The notes beneath the pieces were generated by a model that worked only from the letters and a program-made list of their open reading frames with translations, was not told where the DNA came from and did no database searches. Positions 25,572 through 55,808 of a stretch of 64,000 bases of DNA are shown in pieces. The DNA comes from Psychrosphaera sp. F3M07. Lineage in GTDB: Bacteria > Pseudomonadota > Gammaproteobacteria > Enterobacterales > Alteromonadaceae. The position numbers and the translations under genes were made by a program. The stretch lies in NCBI RefSeq assembly GCF_018860345.1, contig NZ_JAHKPJ010000025.1, positions 1 to 64,000 on the forward strand, read 5' to 3'. How positions within the stretch are numbered: position 1 is the first letter of the stretch; each line of letters begins with the position of its first letter.

Positions 25572-26492
25572 ATGCCAACCAAAATGCCTGATATAGCAAA
25601 CCAAGCCCAAGCCCAAACAGAGGGTGTTCTAGATTGGGTAGGTATGAGTAATATAGAAATGCCAGTAATGGTAGATATGCAAGGTGAGACTCGTCAGGTT
25701 TCTGCTTTAGTTGAAGCATTCGTGAACTTGAATCAACCTAAAGCAAAAGGCATTCACATGTCTCGCTTATACTTAATGTTGGATGAATTGTCTGTAGAAA
25801 GCAGCCTTAATAAAACAACATTAACGGAATTATTAAATAACTTTATTCACAGCCACGAAGATTTAAGTGACAGTGCGCATGTTAAGTTTGAATTTGATTA
25901 CCATATGCGTAGAAAATCGTTGATCAGTGGTAAACGTGGTTGGAAAGCATACCCTGTTGTTATCACGGGCAATTTAACTCAAGGTGTATTAGATATCGAA
26001 CTTGCGGTTAAAGTACCTTACTCTTCAACATGTCCTTGTTCGGCCGCATTAGCACGACAATTAATACAAAATGCGTTTAACGATAAATTTAGCGGTGACG
26101 TTAGTGCTGAAGATGTGCATCAATGGTTAGGGTCTACCGAAGGTATTGTGGCAACACCACACAGCCAACGCTCTATTGCAGAAGTTAAAGTAAAACTTGC
26201 TGATGAAATTACAGAGTTCCCAATTGTTGATTTAGTTGATGCCATTGAAAATGCACTTCAAACGCCAGTGCAAGCAGCCGTAAAACGTGAAGATGAACAA
26301 GAATTTGCAAGATTAAATGGTCAAAACTTAATGTTTTGTGAAGACGCGGGCCGTAGAATTAAACACGCCTTAAACCTTATTTCAGGTTATCGTGACTTTT
26401 GGTTACGAGTTAACCACTATGAATCATTGCATGCACACGACGCGGTATCTGTTGCAAGTAAGGGTATTCCAAACGGTTACTCTTCAAAATAA
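25572..26492 (+). CDS. folE2: GTP cyclohydrolase FolE2 (type IB)
   Basis: FolE2 converts GTP to 7,8-dihydroneopterin triphosphate, the first step of folate (and queuosine) synthesis, and unlike FolE does not need zinc. The 306-residue protein shows the family segments [21 protein letters not shown] and [17 protein letters not shown] with the conserved active-site Cys, followed by TPHSQRS. Glu and His residues in the C-terminal half ([21 protein letters not shown]) complete the site. GGAGAA precedes the ATG. In many bacteria folE2 is induced under zinc shortage by Zur; upstream I see only a weak half-site like TGTTATA (about 25410). A strong terminator follows. Confidence 0.95.
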
Positions 26493-26507
26493 AATACATA
26501 TATATTC

Positions 26508-26534
26508 AAACACCCTTCGGGGTGTTTTTTTATT
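26508..26534 (+). terminator. Rho-independent terminator after folE2
   Basis: AAACACCC/GGGTGTTT stem with a TTCG loop and a run of seven T. Confidence 0.95.
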
Positions 26535-26659
26535 TTACCCGCCAAAATCATGTAATTTAATTACAAAAAATCAATCATATACAGACAATTTCCCTCTTCT
26601 TATTCCTTTTTATGAAATTTAATTTCTAATTATTCTAGAGTAATTAACCTATTTTACTG

Positions 26660-26688
26660 TTGACCTAGTTTAAAAATCTAGCTATGTT
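26660..26688 (+). promoter_or_regulatory. Possible sigma-70 promoter of gltBD
   Basis: TTGACC (26660-26665) and TATGTT (26683-26688) with a 17-base spacer. The predicted start lies upstream of the ArgR-like boxes. It is one of several possible promoters in this AT-rich stretch. Confidence 0.4.
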
Positions 26689-26720
26689 GTTCGGCCGAAT
26701 GCATTTTAAAAAACCCCAAT

Positions 26721-26759
26721 TGTGAATGTATATTCATATTAACTGCATCCATATTTCAT
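26721..26759 (+). promoter_or_regulatory. Probable tandem ArgR operator upstream of gltB
   Basis: The 18-base segment 26721-26738 contains TGAAT-N4-ATTCA and fits the ARG box consensus at all fixed positions, with one mismatch in the A/T positions. A second, weaker box occupies 26742-26759 (TGCAT-N4-ATTTC). The two are separated by exactly three bases, the spacing used by the hexameric arginine repressor. Confidence 0.65.
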
Positions 26760-26823
26760 ATATACTTAATAAAAGGCGATAAAAAACGTCTAATGGTTGC
26801 TAGGTTTAGAGGAGGACGCCAGA

Positions 26824-29800
26824 TTGAACAACACTGGTTCTAAAAAATTACAATTGATGCACAACAGTCAAGATGTTCGCGAGAACTGCGGCTTTGGTCT
26901 TATCGCTCACCTTGAAGGTGAAGCCAGCCATAAGATAGTGCGCACGGCTATTACTAGCTTAGATAGAATGCAACATCGTGGCGGTATTTCAGCCGACGGT
27001 AAAACCGGTGATGGGTGTGGTCTACTAATACAGAAACCTGAAGCTTTTTTCCGAGCAATTGCTGAGGAAAATGGTTGGCATTTAGGCAAAAAATACGGTG
27101 TCGGCACCATATTTTTAAGCCAAGATCCGATCAAGGCGGCTAGAGCGAAAAAGATCATTGAACAGGAAATCGAAAACGAAACCTTAGAAACAGTTGGTTG
27201 GCGTGTTGTTCCTACTAATCCAGAAGTATTAGGTGAAATTGCCTCTTCCTCTGTGCCTCAAATTGAGCAAATATTTGTTAATGCTCAGTCGGGGTGGCGC
27301 AAAAAAGATTTTGAACGCCGCTTATATATGGCGCGTCGTCGTATCGAAAAGCAACTTGAAGACGATGAAGACTTTTATATTCCAAGTTTAAGTTGTTTGG
27401 TAACTGTCTATAAAGGCTTAGTTATGCCTAAAGACTTACCTAAGTTTTATAAAGACCTTGCAGATATTAGAATGGAAACCGCAATATGTGTGTTCCATCA
27501 GCGTTTCTCCACTAATACAACTCCTCAGTGGCGTTTAGCGCAACCATTTAGATTCTTAGCTCACAATGGTGAAATTAATACCATTAAAGGTAATCGCCAA
27601 TGGGCACAAGCCCGCGAATACAAATTCCGTTCACCATTAATCCCTGATTTAAAAGACGCTTCTCCGTTTGTAAGTAAAACAGGAAGTGACTCAGCTTCAT
27701 TAGATAACATGCTTGAATTGTTCTTAGCCGGTGGCTTAGATTTATTCCGTTCAATGCGTTTATTAGTGCCGCCTGCATATCAAAATCATCCCCAAATGGA
27801 TGATCAGTTAAAAGCATTCTATGAATTTAACTCTATGCACATGGAACCATGGGATGGCCCAGCCGGTATCGTAATGACTAATGGTAGACACGTAGCCTGT
27901 AACTTGGACCGTAATGGTCTTCGTCCTGCTCGTTATACCATTACTAAAGGCAAAATTTTAACCTTAGCGTCTGAATCTGGTATTTGGGATTACACCCCTG
28001 ATGAAGTGATTGAACAAGGCCGTGTAGGTCCAGGTCAAATGTTAGCGGTAGATACTTATACTGGTAAAGTTTGGCATTCTGATGAAATTGATCAGGACTT
28101 AAAAGAACGCCACCCATATAAAGAATGGTTAGATAAAAACATTCAACACTTAAAACCATTCTCTGAATGTGACGGTGATGAAATTGGTCAACGATTATTT
28201 AATGACGAAACCCAAGCGGTGTACCATAAGTTATTTAATTATTCGTTTGAAGAAATTGAACAAGTAATCAAAGTTCTAGCAAAAGACGGTCAAGAAGCAA
28301 CGGGCTCTATGGGTGATGATGCACCTATGGCAGTTATGTCTAAACAAAAACGTAACTTCTATGATTATTTCCGTCAATTGTTTGCCCAAGTAACCAATCC
28401 ACCTATCGATCCATTACGTGAAAATCACGTTATGTCGTTAGCCACTTGTATTGGTCGTGAGCAAAACGTATTTAATGAAACATCAGGGTACGCAAATCGC
28501 GTATTATTTGAATCACCAGTATTAATGTATACCGATTTAGACCAACTAAAAGCGTTTAATGACGAGCATTATCACACTGAGTCGTTATCAATATTATATA
28601 ACCCTGAAGAAACTGATTTAAAAACGGCCATCGAAACCTTATGTGCTGACGCTGTAACGGCGGTTAAAGAGCGCAATACGGTTATCCTTATATTGTCAGA
28701 CCGAGCAGTAGAAAAAGGCTTAGCGCCAATCCCTGCAGCAATGGCGGTTGGTGCCGTACAACAAACATTAGTTGTTAATCAACTTCGTTGTGACTCTAAT
28801 ATCATAGTAGAAACTGCTTCAGCCCGTGATTCGCATCACTTTGCTGTATTATTAGGTCTAGGGGCTACTGCTGTATACCCATATATGGCTTATGAAACCG
28901 TTGAACAATTTGTTGAAAATGGCAGCATAGATATCCCAGTAAAAGACGCTGTTATTAATTACCGTAAAGGCATTAATAAAGGTCTATTTAAGATCATGTC
29001 TAAAATGGGTATCTCAACTATTGCGAGTTATCGTTGTTCAAACTTGTTTGAAGCCGTGGGGCTTGCCTCTGAAATTATGGAACTTTGTTTCCCTAACATC
29101 ACAAGTCGTATTGAAGGCGCTAATTTTGATGATATTCATCAAGAGCAAATGCACAATGCCAAAGTAGCATGGTTAAAACGTAAACCGATTAACCATGGTG
29201 GGTTGCTTAAGTATGTTCACGGTGGTGAATACCATGCTTATAACCCAGATGTTGTGCAAACGTTACAAGTTGCCGTTAAGTCAGGAAACTATTCTGACTA
29301 TCAAAAGTACGCTAATTTAGTGAATAACCGCCCACCGGCTCATTTCCGCGATTTAATGGCACTTAAATCTCAGACGCCTATTTCGATAGACGATGTGGTT
29401 AAACCAACCGAGTTATATCCTCGTTTTGACTCTGCAGCTATGTCTATTGGAGCATTGAGCCCAGAAGCGCATGAAGCGTTAGCTCAAGCGATGAATAAAC
29501 TTGGTGGATTCTCAAACTCTGGCGAAGGTGGTGAAGACCCGCGCCGTTTTGGGACGAATAAGAATTCACGTATTAAACAAATAGCGTCAGGCCGTTTTGG
29601 TGTAACACCGCACTACTTAAGAAATGCAGATGTATTGCAAATTAAAGTAGCGCAAGGTGCAAAACCAGGTGAAGGTGGCCAATTACCGGGTGATAAAGTG
29701 ACTGCAGAAATTGCACAACTTAGATACTCAGTACAAGGTGTTACACTTATTTCACCTCCACCACATCACGACATTTATTCAATTGAAGATTTAGCTCAGC

Positions 29801-31311
29801 TGATCTTTGACTTAAAACAAGTTAATCCAAAAGCATTAGTATCCGTAAAATTAGTTTCTGAACCAGGTGTTGGCACAATTGCCACAGGTGTTGCAAAAGC
29901 AAATGCGGATTTAATTACCATCTCTGGTTTTGACGGCGGTACAGCGGCAAGTCCACTGACTTCTGTTAAGTATGCGGGTAGTCCTTGGGAACTTGGTTTA
30001 TCAGAAACGCATCAAGCACTTGTTGAAAATGGCTTACGTCATAAAGTACGAGTGCAAGTTGACGGTGGTTTAAAAACTGGTATTGACGTTATAAAAGCCG
30101 CTATTTTAGGTGCGGAAAGTTTTGGTTTTGGTACAGGCCCTATGGTTGCTTTAGGTTGTAAGTTCTTACGAATCTGCCACTTAAATAACTGTGCGACAGG
30201 TGTTGCAACTCAAGACGAAACGTTACGTAAAGAATACTTTGCTGGTTTACCGTCTATGGTTGAAAACTACTTTACTTTCATTGCCCAAGAAGTTCGCGAA
30301 ACGATGGCCGCAATTGGTATTAGTAAGTTTGAAGATTTAATTGGTCGTACCGACTTATTAGAATTATTAGATGGCCAAACCCAAAAGCAAAGTCGTTTGG
30401 AATTAAATGGCATATTAGCCTCTAGTGGTGTAACTACCGAGTTCCCTAGTTATTGTGTTGCTAAGAATGAGCCGCTTGATAACGGTGATTTAAACGTTAA
30501 GTTAGTAGCTGATACCGCCGAACAAGTTGCCAATAAAACAGGTGGACAACATTTTTACGACATCCGTAATACTGACCGTTCTGTTGGTGCGACCTTATCT
30601 GGTGAAGTGGCAGATGTTCATGGTAACCAAGGCATGGCAACTGACCCTATCCAGCTTACGTTTACCGGCACTGCGGGTCAAAGCTTTGGGGTTTGGAACG
30701 CTGGCGGTGTGTATTTACACCTAATTGGTGATGCAAACGACTACGTTGGTAAAGGCATGACAGGTGGTAAAATTACCATTAACCCGCCAAAAGGCGTTAG
30801 TTACGTGAGTCACAAGTCTGTGATCATGGGTAACACATGTTTATATGGTGCAACAGGCGGTAAGTTATTAGCGGCTGGTTGTGCAGGTGAACGATTTGCT
30901 GTTCGTAACTCAGGTGCTGTAGCAGTAATTGAGGGTGCAGGCGACAACGTTTGTGAATATATGACAGGTGGTGTTGTTGTTATTTTAGGTGATATCGGGG
31001 TTAACTTCGGTGCCGGTATGACTGGTGGATTCGCTTATTTATTAGATGAATCTGGCGACCTAAATGAACGTATGAATGGTGAATTAATTGAAGCTCTAGA
31101 TATTGATATGACTATTCATATTGAGAATCTACGTGGGTTAATCAACCAACATTTTGAAGAAACTCAAAGTGAACGTTCGCAACAAATCTTAGCTGAGTTT
31201 GATACTTGGTTACCTAAGTTTAAATTGGTTAAACCTAAAACATCTGATGTAAATCAGCTGTTAGGTCATCGTCACCGCTCTTCTGCAGAGCTACGTGTTC
31301 AAGCAATGTAG
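26824..31311 (+). CDS. gltB: Glutamate synthase (NADPH) large subunit GltB
   Basis: GltB makes two glutamates from glutamine and 2-oxoglutarate, with electrons supplied by GltD. The protein is 1495 residues from the start chosen here. A short propeptide (21 residues) precedes Cys22 in ENCGFGLIAH, the N-terminal nucleophile of the class II glutaminase domain (to about 420). A central domain follows (about 450-770), then the FMN-binding synthase barrel (about 830-1200) with GGEGGEDPRRFG and the 3Fe-4S ligands CRICHLNNC, and a beta-helix C-terminal domain. The frame is open from 26797, but a strong GAGGAGG lies eight bases before TTG 26824, which I take as the start. gltD follows after 15 bases. 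Confidence 0.97.
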   Translation: MNNTGSKKLQLMHNSQDVRENCGFGLIAHLEGEASHKIVRTAITSLDRMQHRGGISADGKTGDGCGLLIQKPEAFFRAIAEENGWHLGKKYGVGTIFLSQDPIKAARAKKIIEQEIENETLETVGWRVVPTNPEVLGEIASSSVPQIEQIFVNAQSGWRKKDFERRLYMARRRIEKQLEDDEDFYIPSLSCLVTVYKGLVMPKDLPKFYKDLADIRMETAICVFHQRFSTNTTPQWRLAQPFRFLAHNGEINTIKGNRQWAQAREYKFRSPLIPDLKDASPFVSKTGSDSASLDNMLELFLAGGLDLFRSMRLLVPPAYQNHPQMDDQLKAFYEFNSMHMEPWDGPAGIVMTNGRHVACNLDRNGLRPARYTITKGKILTLASESGIWDYTPDEVIEQGRVGPGQMLAVDTYTGKVWHSDEIDQDLKERHPYKEWLDKNIQHLKPFSECDGDEIGQRLFNDETQAVYHKLFNYSFEEIEQVIKVLAKDGQEATGSMGDDAPMAVMSKQKRNFYDYFRQLFAQVTNPPIDPLRENHVMSLATCIGREQNVFNETSGYANRVLFESPVLMYTDLDQLKAFNDEHYHTESLSILYNPEETDLKTAIETLCADAVTAVKERNTVILILSDRAVEKGLAPIPAAMAVGAVQQTLVVNQLRCDSNIIVETASARDSHHFAVLLGLGATAVYPYMAYETVEQFVENGSIDIPVKDAVINYRKGINKGLFKIMSKMGISTIASYRCSNLFEAVGLASEIMELCFPNITSRIEGANFDDIHQEQMHNAKVAWLKRKPINHGGLLKYVHGGEYHAYNPDVVQTLQVAVKSGNYSDYQKYANLVNNRPPAHFRDLMALKSQTPISIDDVVKPTELYPRFDSAAMSIGALSPEAHEALAQAMNKLGGFSNSGEGGEDPRRFGTNKNSRIKQIASGRFGVTPHYLRNADVLQIKVAQGAKPGEGGQLPGDKVTAEIAQLRYSVQGVTLISPPPHHDIYSIEDLAQLIFDLKQVNPKALVSVKLVSEPGVGTIATGVAKANADLITISGFDGGTAASPLTSVKYAGSPWELGLSETHQALVENGLRHKVRVQVDGGLKTGIDVIKAAILGAESFGFGTGPMVALGCKFLRICHLNNCATGVATQDETLRKEYFAGLPSMVENYFTFIAQEVRETMAAIGISKFEDLIGRTDLLELLDGQTQKQSRLELNGILASSGVTTEFPSYCVAKNEPLDNGDLNVKLVADTAEQVANKTGGQHFYDIRNTDRSVGATLSGEVADVHGNQGMATDPIQLTFTGTAGQSFGVWNAGGVYLHLIGDANDYVGKGMTGGKITINPPKGVSYVSHKSVIMGNTCLYGATGGKLLAAGCAGERFAVRNSGAVAVIEGAGDNVCEYMTGGVVVILGDIGVNFGAGMTGGFAYLLDESGDLNERMNGELIEALDIDMTIHIENLRGLINQHFEETQSERSQQILAEFDTWLPKFKLVKPKTSDVNQLLGHRHRSSAELRVQAM

Positions 31312-32733
<1,422 letters not shown>

Positions 32734-53090: not shown

Positions 53091-54866
53091 CTACCCTAAT
53101 GTAAGTAAGACATCGCCTGTTGAAACAGCGTCGCCTTCTTTGATATTGATTGAGGCTATTGTGCCTGAAGAGGCAGCTCGAATCTCAGTTTCCATTTTCA
53201 TTGCTTCCATGATGATAACTACTTCACCATCTTCCACAACGCTGCCTGGAGACACTAAGATTTTAAATATATTACCCGCTAAAGGTGCGTTAAGAGTTTC
53301 ACTTGCGGTGACCGTTGTATGTTGAGTGTGAGCTTCATCTTTTTGAGCGCCCTGTACAACACTGGTTAACTCACCTGAAGGGGCAACTACAACTTCATAT
53401 ACTTTACCATCAACAGAAACACTATAAGCTTCCGGCGCATCTGGATTAGTTGAAGCTTGTTTAGGAGTTTCTATTTCACCGGTTGGGACTGGTTCAAACG
53501 CAGAAGGATTATTACGATTTTCTAAGAACTTAAGACCGATTTGTGGGAATAAAGCATAGGTTAATACATCATCAATTTTTTCATCGGCAAGATTCAGCCC
53601 TTTTTCCGCGGCAATACCGTCAAGCTCGTCAGTTAATTTAACTAATTCATCTTCAATATTATCCGCTGGACGACAAGTAATTGCTTCACCACCATCTAAC
53701 ACTCTGGCTTGTAATTCAGCATTAACTGGAGCAGCAGTTGCTCCGTATTCACCTTTTAAAACACCAGCGGTTTCTTTAGTGATAGACTTATAACGCTCAC
53801 CTGTTAATACGTTTAATACCGCTTGAGTACCAACAATCTGTGACGTTGGTGTTACTAAAGGAATTTGCCCCAAATCTTTACGAACTTTAGGGATCTCTTT
53901 TAATACTTCATCCATTTTATCTTCAGCGCCCTGCTCGCGAAGTTGGTTTTCCATGTTAGTTAACATGCCACCAGGAACTTGGGCTAATAAAATTCGAGAG
54001 TCGACACCTTTTAAGCTGCCTTCAAATTTAGCGTATTTCTTTCTAACTTCTCTGAAATAAGCTGCTATTTCAGCTAATAGCACTAAATCTAAGCCAGTAT
54101 CTCTATCTGTTCCTTCAACGATCGCAACCATCGTCTCTGTTGGACTGTGGCCGTAAGTCATACTCATTGACGATACTGCAGAATCTAGCATATCGATTCC
54201 AGCATCTATCGCTTTTTGGTAAGTTGCCGTTGAAAGTCCGGTAGTTGCGTGACACTGCATTGCAATTGGTAAATCAACTGTTGCTTTTAAGTTGGTGATT
54301 AATTCTTCACATTCATAAGGTCTTAACAAACCTGCCATATCTTTGATACAAATAGAGTGGCAACCCATATCTTCTAATCGTTTTGCCATGTCTAACCACA
54401 TTTGTAAGTTATGAACCGGGCTAACCGTATATGAAATAGTACCTTGGGCATGAGCGCCAACATCGATGGCTGATTTGACGGCAGTTTCTAAGTTTCTGAT
54501 GTCATTCATCGCATCAAAAATTCTAAATACATCTACACCATTAGTATGTGCACGTTCAACAAATTTACGAACAACATCGTCGGCGTAATGGCGATAACCT
54601 AGTAAGTTTTGGCCACGTAGTAACATTTGTTGTTTTGTATTTGGCATAGCTTGTTTTAAAGCACGAATACGTTCCCAAGGATCTTCACCTAGGTATCGGA
54701 TACAAGAATCAAATGTTGCGCCGCCCCAAGATTCCATTGACCAAAAACCAACTTGATCTAATTTACCCGCGATTGGAAGCATATCTTCCAGACGCATTCG
54801 AGTTGCAAGTAATGACTGATGTGCATCACGCAGCACCAACTCAGTAAGTAACAATGGCTTTTTCAT
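53091..54866 (-). CDS. oadA: Oxaloacetate decarboxylase alpha subunit OadA
   Basis: OadA transfers the carboxyl group of oxaloacetate to biotin. The 591-residue protein has a carboxyltransferase TIM barrel (about residues 5-270) with [13 protein letters not shown], metal ligands around [12 protein letters not shown] and the [14 protein letters not shown] segment. A PYC/OADA domain follows (about 290-470), then a Pro/Ala-rich linker and the biotinyl domain (about 520-590) with EAMKMETEI, whose Lys is biotinylated. It lies between oadG and oadB in the operon. Confidence 0.96.
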
Positions 54867-54876
54867 GTTCCGTCCT

Positions 54877-55122
54877 CTATTTATTTCGCGCTTTATGTTG
54901 TTTTACGGCGGCAGTGATAGCTGCAATCACCTGTGGCGACGTTTTATTAGAATTTATTGGGTTAATTGGTGTGCGAGTGAGTTTCACTGGATCTGGATAG
55001 GCTTCGGCAAATTTGGTTAACAGTTTTATAGCAACAATTAATACCGACAAAAAAAGGAATACAACTAACATTCCTACCGCCATAAGTATGCCAGCCTCAG
55101 CTAGCAGCTCTGATACGTTCAT
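54877..55122 (-). CDS. oadG: Oxaloacetate decarboxylase gamma subunit OadG
   Basis: OadG is the small membrane anchor that assembles the alpha and beta subunits and can bind Zn2+. The 81-residue protein has an N-terminal membrane helix (about residues 10-35, [19 protein letters not shown]) and a polar C-terminal tail of the usual type, ending in a conserved region around [13 protein letters not shown]. It is the first gene of the operon, ten bases before oadA. Confidence 0.92.
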
Positions 55123-55514
55123 AAATTTTAACTACCCGTTTATTATTGTTTATCTTTGATTTGCAAATCGTTTGAAAATGATTTTATTTTTATTTGATCA
55201 TCAGATCTGAAAATCAAATTTAGAGTATTAGCTCTTAAGTAACACAAAAACGTTTCTAATTGAAAGAAAAATTTTAATGATATGGCTTAATTGTCAGCTA
55301 AACACTTAACTTACAGGGTATATTAATATTGAATAAATAATAATTTAATTTGAATAATTATTTGGATAAATGTCAAAAACTTCTAATTTTGAAGTAACAA
55401 AATTAAGATATTTAGCATTAATTAAAGCCAAGATGAGTATAGCTATAAATTTTAAAATAAAAGGGGATGTTTTTTAGATTTGTGGATTTTTACTATTGAG
55501 GTAAGAAGAAGATA
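55123..55514. other. Upstream region of oadGAB and 3' flank of the Arg tRNAs
   Basis: About 390 very AT-rich bases without a gene. They must hold the oadG promoter (minus strand) and the end of the tRNA transcript, but I cannot pick a convincing -35/-10 pair. A small hairpin ACTTC/GAAGT is at about 55379-55395. Confidence 0.5.
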
Positions 55515-55591
55515 TGGCGCGCTCGGGAGGATTCGAACCTCCGACCGCCTGGTTCGTAGCCAGGTACTCTATCCAGCTGAGCTACGAGCGC
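55515..55591 (-). tRNA. tRNA-Arg (ACG)
   Basis: A 77-base cloverleaf on the minus strand with acceptor stem GCGCTCG/CGAGCGC, anticodon loop CTACGAA (anticodon ACG, wobble inosine expected) and encoded CCA. It is the last of a Ser-Arg-Arg operon. Confidence 0.98.
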
Positions 55592-55615
55592 GCAATAAGT
55601 CTTCTTTTGTAATGA

Positions 55616-55692
55616 TGGCGCGCTCGGGAGGATTCGAACCTCCGACCGCCTGGTTCGTAGCCAGGTACTCTATCCAGCTGAGCTACGAGCGC
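55616..55692 (-). tRNA. tRNA-Arg (ACG)
   Basis: Identical 77-base copy of the downstream tRNA-Arg, middle gene of the Ser-Arg-Arg operon on the minus strand, with anticodon ACG and encoded CCA. Confidence 0.98.
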
Positions 55693-55715
55693 GCATTATC
55701 ACAAAATACATTGAA

Positions 55716-55808
55716 TGGCGGAGAAGGGGGGATTCGAACCCCCGATAGGGCTACAAACCCTATACTCCCTTAGCAGGGGAGCGCCTTCAGCCACTCGGCC
55801 ACCTCTCC
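55716..55808 (-). tRNA. tRNA-Ser (GCT)
   Basis: A 93-base class II tRNA on the minus strand with the long variable arm typical of serine tRNAs, anticodon loop CTGCTAA (anticodon GCT) and encoded CCA. It is the first gene of the Ser-Arg-Arg operon; the same kind of cluster lies next to csrA in many gammaproteobacteria. Confidence 0.98.

Follow-up and report, generated by a model that had tools for sequence, protein, structure and literature searches.

In Escherichia coli, ArgR directly represses the glutamate synthase operon gltBDF with a Kd of about 1.8 nM; arginine nearly halves expression of this operon and deletion of argR doubles it (Paul et al. 2007, PMC1784095). There the two ArgR boxes occupy −361 to −318 and are further upstream than the Lrp sites (PMC1784095). 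An ArgR operator consists of two 18-bp boxes at a distance of 3 bp, and such a pair is also present at +29 to +65 of the E. coli lrp gene (PMC6640053). At lrp the effects of ArgR in vivo are small and ArgR was called an inefficient roadblock, while a 25-bp deletion which placed the boxes immediately behind the start resulted in a stronger arginine effect (PMC6640053). Regulon predictions list gltBD as an ArgR target in Shewanella (PMC3223726) and name gltBD among the taxon-specific ArgR targets in Proteobacteria, oadABG being a further predicted target (PMC5343134). Thus, the link between ArgR and gltBD is already known, and it is the position of the operator that differs from E. coli in the locus described here. 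Among the titles surveyed in the ArgR literature, none deals with the position of a gltBD operator in this group, and we claim no priority.

The window analysed is a stretch of 64,000 nucleotides from Psychrosphaera sp. F3M07, which forms part of contig C12 of a genome of 3.87 Mb (G000). Table 1 gives an overview of the features of the gltBD locus, together with the operator of argC. The listed open reading frame of gltB starts at the TTG at position 26797. The TTG at 26824 is probably the better choice, because the motif GAGGAGG (26809-26815) is present 8 bases upstream of it and an ATG is aligned with it in the congener G077. Since a terminator-like hairpin follows folE2, gltB probably has a control region of its own. 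The ARG boxes are located behind this hairpin, 65-103 nt before the TTG at 26824, and therefore within the gltBD control region.

Table 1. Features of the gltBD upstream region and of the argC operator in Psychrosphaera sp. F3M07. Positions refer to the window except where a contig is named.
Feature	Position	Strand	Remarks
folE2, upstream gene	25572-26492		
Terminator-like hairpin behind folE2	26508-26527	+	1 found vs mean 0.0 in shuffles
P1, predicted promoter	26660-26688	+	TTGACC-17-TATGTT; invariant in 3 genus genomes
ARG box 1	26721-26738	+	TGTGAATGTATATTCATA; 10/10 core positions
Spacer between boxes	26739-26741	+	TTA, 3 bp
P2, possible promoter	26739-26766	+	TTAACT-16-TATACT; consensus match; ARG boxes overlap
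ARG box 2, weaker	26742-26759	+	ACTGCATCCATATTTCAT; 7/10 core positions
gltB, glutamate synthase large subunit	26824-31311	+	probable TTG start; NF008730, 2652 bits
gltD, glutamate synthase small subunit	31327-32733	+	TIGR01318, 789 bits
argC operator	C2:37616-37650		72 bp before argC (ArgC: TIGR01850, 340 bits)

The core consensus of an ARG box is TGAAT-N4-ATTCA. The gltB site comprises two 18-bp imperfect palindromes of this type. The first-pass annotation had described a strong box and a weaker one exactly three bases apart, which can be read directly from the core positions and the spacer, and had recognised in them the geometry of known ArgR operators, an assignment which holds for the two 18-bp boxes and 3-bp gap of the published operators (PMC6640053). 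Its remark that E. coli gltBD is under the influence of ArgR is correct, and the influence is the direct repression cited above. The arginine control of ammonia assimilation which the annotation derived from the boxes is a prediction for this organism. Two further genomes of the genus were searched, and both retain the boxes and their spacing. Across the three genus genomes, i.e. including our own, the ten core positions of box 1 are invariant, with variation in its centre and flanks, and box 2 shows a single variable position.

A single match to PF01316 was found in the genome, and hence a single ArgR. The protein was assigned to the equivalog NF003457 (263.7 bits), and 59 of 75 residues of its DNA-binding domain are identical to PDB entry 1aoy, which we take to be E. 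coli ArgR. Judged by its sequence, this ArgR is of the gammaproteobacterial type. The gene next to argR is presumably mdh, as recognised from its translation.

Within the genome, the operator of argC resembles the gltB site in its tandem design and in its second box, which also starts with TGCAT and is degenerate on the right side; the left part of box 2, TGCAT-N4-AT, is shared by both sites. It differs in what it precedes, namely argC and further arginine genes (argB-, argH- and argA-like) on the same stretch of the contig. A pair comparable to these two was not found at the carA locus (best tandem 12/20), at the astA locus, where about 230 bp before astC were scanned (best tandem 13/20), or in the stretch before argR (best tandem 13/20). 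Since carA, ast and argR offer no such pair, the local consensus is that of the argC operator. The check proposed in the annotation, a comparison with the arg genes of this genome, thus shows agreement at argC, the single clear local arg operator found. The argA gene directly follows an ArgH-like gene within the arg cluster and can probably do without a separate operator. In this cluster (L158, 75-1391 and 1408-3342, on contig C2) a protein of 644 amino acids, which we take to be ArgH-like, is followed by a separate, full argA. Part of the 644-aa protein matches N-acetylglutamate synthase with an E of 4e-17, a score below the family cut-off, and the first enzyme seems to be encoded in both its versions side by side.

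For comparison within the family, 98 genomes were searched for GltB, and all except G026, which gave no gltB match, were found to encode it. Of the 97 regions, L101 was dropped (motif absent, too short), which left 96 gltB upstream regions; weak GltB paralogues with 32-40% identity from 6 genomes were excluded. When pairs of boxes were scored against the canonical consensus, a box-to-box distance of 21 yielded 21 of the 96 upstream regions with at least 16/20 and 11 with at least 17/20. The other distances between 14 and 35 gave at most 10 and 3 regions, respectively. So that the test would not be circular, we derived a matrix solely from argC upstream regions, using the 30 genomes that matched best among the 95 with argC. 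With at least 10 bits this argC matrix matched 47 of the 96 gltB upstream regions, from 30 of 52 genera; the remaining 49 family regions were without a match of this strength. In ten dinucleotide-shuffled sets, 10 bits were reached by 1.2 upstream regions on average and by never more than 3; on reversed sequences the number was 3 of 96, including one with 21.0 bits. The case for an ArgR operator at gltB is mainly a comparative one.

With the transcription start of P1 assumed 7 nt after the −10 element, near 26695, the boxes are at about +27 to +65. The operator therefore seems to be located at the very beginning of the transcribed region, unlike the far-upstream position of the E. coli gltBDF sites, with which it shares the regulator, the target, the two ArgR boxes and the expected repression by arginine. 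In position it almost coincides with the E. coli lrp boxes, which are likewise 3 bp apart and differ in the target gene and in the small effects of ArgR in vivo (PMC6640053).

The position relative to P1 recurs in the family. A TTGAC[CG] element at −270 to −110 of the CGFG codon was present in 51 of the 96 gltB upstream regions (33 genera). In 39 of these 51 anchored regions (21 genera) the best matrix match within 150 bp was in a slot at +46 to +65, counted from the first −35 base and picked after seeing an earlier offset profile in which 21 of 49 regions had their peak in the 50-55 bins; in the other 12 the best match was outside the slot. At a threshold of at least 8 bits, 24 of 51 anchored regions (13 genera) had a match in the slot, with 3 matches elsewhere within 150 bp and none for the backward motif. 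Offsets within the slot are 50-55, while those of the genus are 61-62, i.e. about one helical turn further. In our genome the best matrix match is at −166 of the CGFG codon.

Taken together, identity of the site as an ArgR operator is well supported as far as sequence comparison goes, because the genome encodes a single ArgR, the boxes resemble the argC operator, a matrix derived from argC finds operators at gltB across the family, and the position relative to the promoter is fixed in much of the family. We consider it likely, at a probability of about 0.83, that the two boxes form a canonical ArgR operator downstream of P1 through which arginine-bound ArgR would repress gltBD. Points against this reading are the 7/10 core of box 2, the lack of a comparable pair at carA, ast and argR, the 49 family regions below 10 bits, the 12 anchored regions with their best match outside the slot, and the small effects of ArgR at lrp. 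ArgR binding, repression, the response to arginine and the start site at gltBD are what we infer from these comparisons. With an ample supply of arginine, the ArgR hexamer in its arginine-bound form would bind both boxes cooperatively, the strong box 1 anchoring the weak box 2. Binding would lower gltBD transcription and would thus act as feedback on glutamate, a precursor of arginine. Repression might be exerted by a clamp on transcription as it initiates from P1 or shortly thereafter, or by occlusion of the overlapping, possible P2; we favour these two modes because of the behaviour of the E. coli gltBDF and lrp operators. Interference from far upstream, as proposed in E. coli, would not be expected here.

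ArgR could also act at P2, with the boxes blocking the polymerase there and P1 hardly affected, as in the P1/P2 arrangement of E. coli carAB. Relative to the predicted P2 start near 26773 the boxes span about −52 to −14, the TATACT of this promoter-like match is kept in the three genus genomes, and carP1/carP2 of E. coli provide a precedent (PMC6640053). Nevertheless, P2 is a consensus match only, and a weakly founded one, since 6 promoter-like matches were found and 2.3 were expected; moreover, the family regions were searched systematically for the TTGAC element of P1, and it is this element and not P2 that was seen to recur there. We regard an action confined to P2 as possible, with the odds somewhat against it.

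A second question is whether repression from this site would be efficient. ArgR might bind and have little effect on gltBD, as at the lrp operator, whose boxes occupy nearly the same position and gained in arginine effect when the deletion moved them behind the start (PMC6640053). This is unlikely, because an operator turns up in this slot in many genera (39 of 51 best matches, 21 genera), which would not be expected of a useless site.

It appears very improbable to us that these are the boxes of a different regulator which recognises a comparable AT-rich palindrome. The motif is AT-rich indeed, the argC matrix also scores other AT-rich stretches of the window, and LiuR and NtrC are predicted at gltBD of Shewanella (PMC3223726, PMC5343134), but the 21-bp register and the recognition of the gltB sites by a matrix from argC point to ArgR.

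Chance expectation was determined for single and tandem boxes. Single ARG boxes are no more frequent in the window than by chance: with at most 1 mismatch, 8 matches were counted as compared to 5.14 expected, and 15 of 100 shuffles reached 8. With at most 3 of 20 mismatches the tandem gave 1 match in the window and 0 in 100 shuffles. In the whole genome the tandem pattern gave 3 distinct sites, each of them appearing on both strands, versus 1 for the backward pattern. The three are the argC site, the gltB site and C28:308315-308349. The last may be a chance match and is located some 90 bp upstream of an O-acetylhomoserine sulfhydrylase-like gene. Despite the chance frequency of a lone box, a chance palindrome in AT-rich DNA can practically be set aside for the gltB site, being already contradicted by conservation: the tandem is absent from the shuffles, the pair is kept in the genus and its position in much of the family.

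To place the ArgR operator of gltBD in a wider context, positions were compared at 80 named loci, the best 80 of 582, which seem to overlap partly with the family set; the named GltB relatives among them include Rheinheimera, Alteromonas, Thalassotalea and Colwellia, with at most 75% identity. Positions are those of the best matches without a score threshold, relative to the CGFG codon. Among these best 80 of 582, the range −124 to −94 comprised 7 of 8 Colwellia/Thalassotalea loci, 3 of 4 Rheinheimera/Arsukibacterium loci and 1 of 25 others. The range −640 to −590 comprised 29 of 31 Enterobacterales loci, one of the misses having too little upstream sequence, and 1 of the 25 others, of which 14 had their best match at −520 to −450. 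For the 7 Pseudoalteromonas and 5 Aeromonas loci of this set the best match was in none of these three ranges. Tentatively, control of gltBD by ArgR may be old in the gammaproteobacteria and the operator may have moved. It would occupy a far-upstream place in Enterobacterales and a fixed one immediately behind the core promoter, starting at about +16 to +27 and ending by about +65, in the Colwellia-Thalassotalea-Rheinheimera-like part of the family. In the latter a different step would then be affected, namely promoter escape or early transcription by clamping, and not an upstream activation complex by interference; we would put the odds for this scenario below even.

The probable ArgR operator at gltBD supports the view that glutamate synthase is tied to the arginine supply in this marine gammaproteobacterial family. 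It provides a natural comparison in which the same regulator and target have their operator in quite different places, and it makes efficient repression from an ArgR site downstream of the start testable, a point on which the E. coli lrp work left doubt.

Further elements were noted in the gltB upstream region. The inverted repeats between 26490 and 26830 are two overlapping imperfect palindromes, on which no conclusion is based. Upstream of P1 a perfect 15-bp palindrome, TGTAATTTAATTACA (26551-26565), is kept in the three genus genomes, and at the predicted P1 start the palindrome TTCGGCCGAA (26690-26699) is invariant in the same genomes. In the gltB leader of the congener G036 (L007), the interval from TATATACTTA to the ribosome-binding site is longer by about 35 bases, which appear to duplicate the adjoining sequence. 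Two sub-threshold Rfam matches within 26480-26900 (E 0.32 and 0.33), far below the gathering scores, were rejected as chance.

A sequence-only model for the whole genome was built from 29 argC sites (the 30 minus one identical). It recovered argC (E 3.5e-4), and its other matches were mostly short, AT-rich and partial; the gltB site was missing from its 24 matches at E ≤10, for which 150 of the 5670 candidates from the first look had been scored. The model was therefore rejected as a regulon finder, and its outcome counts against the gltB site.

Within the window the top score of the argC matrix was 17.7 bits at 55328-55366, above the gltB site with 13.8 bits, which likewise counts against the latter. 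This ARG-like tandem precedes oadG-oadA (minus strand, 54877-55122 and 53091-54866) by about 200 bp, corresponding to the predicted target oadABG mentioned above. At family oadA loci, the best upstream match reached at least 10 bits in 16 of 30 scanned, a count taken without a shuffle control. Close to this site, a 97-aa open reading frame with repeated motifs (55480-55773) is probably spurious, because it overlies tRNA genes, two for tRNA-Arg and one for tRNA-Ser on the minus strand.
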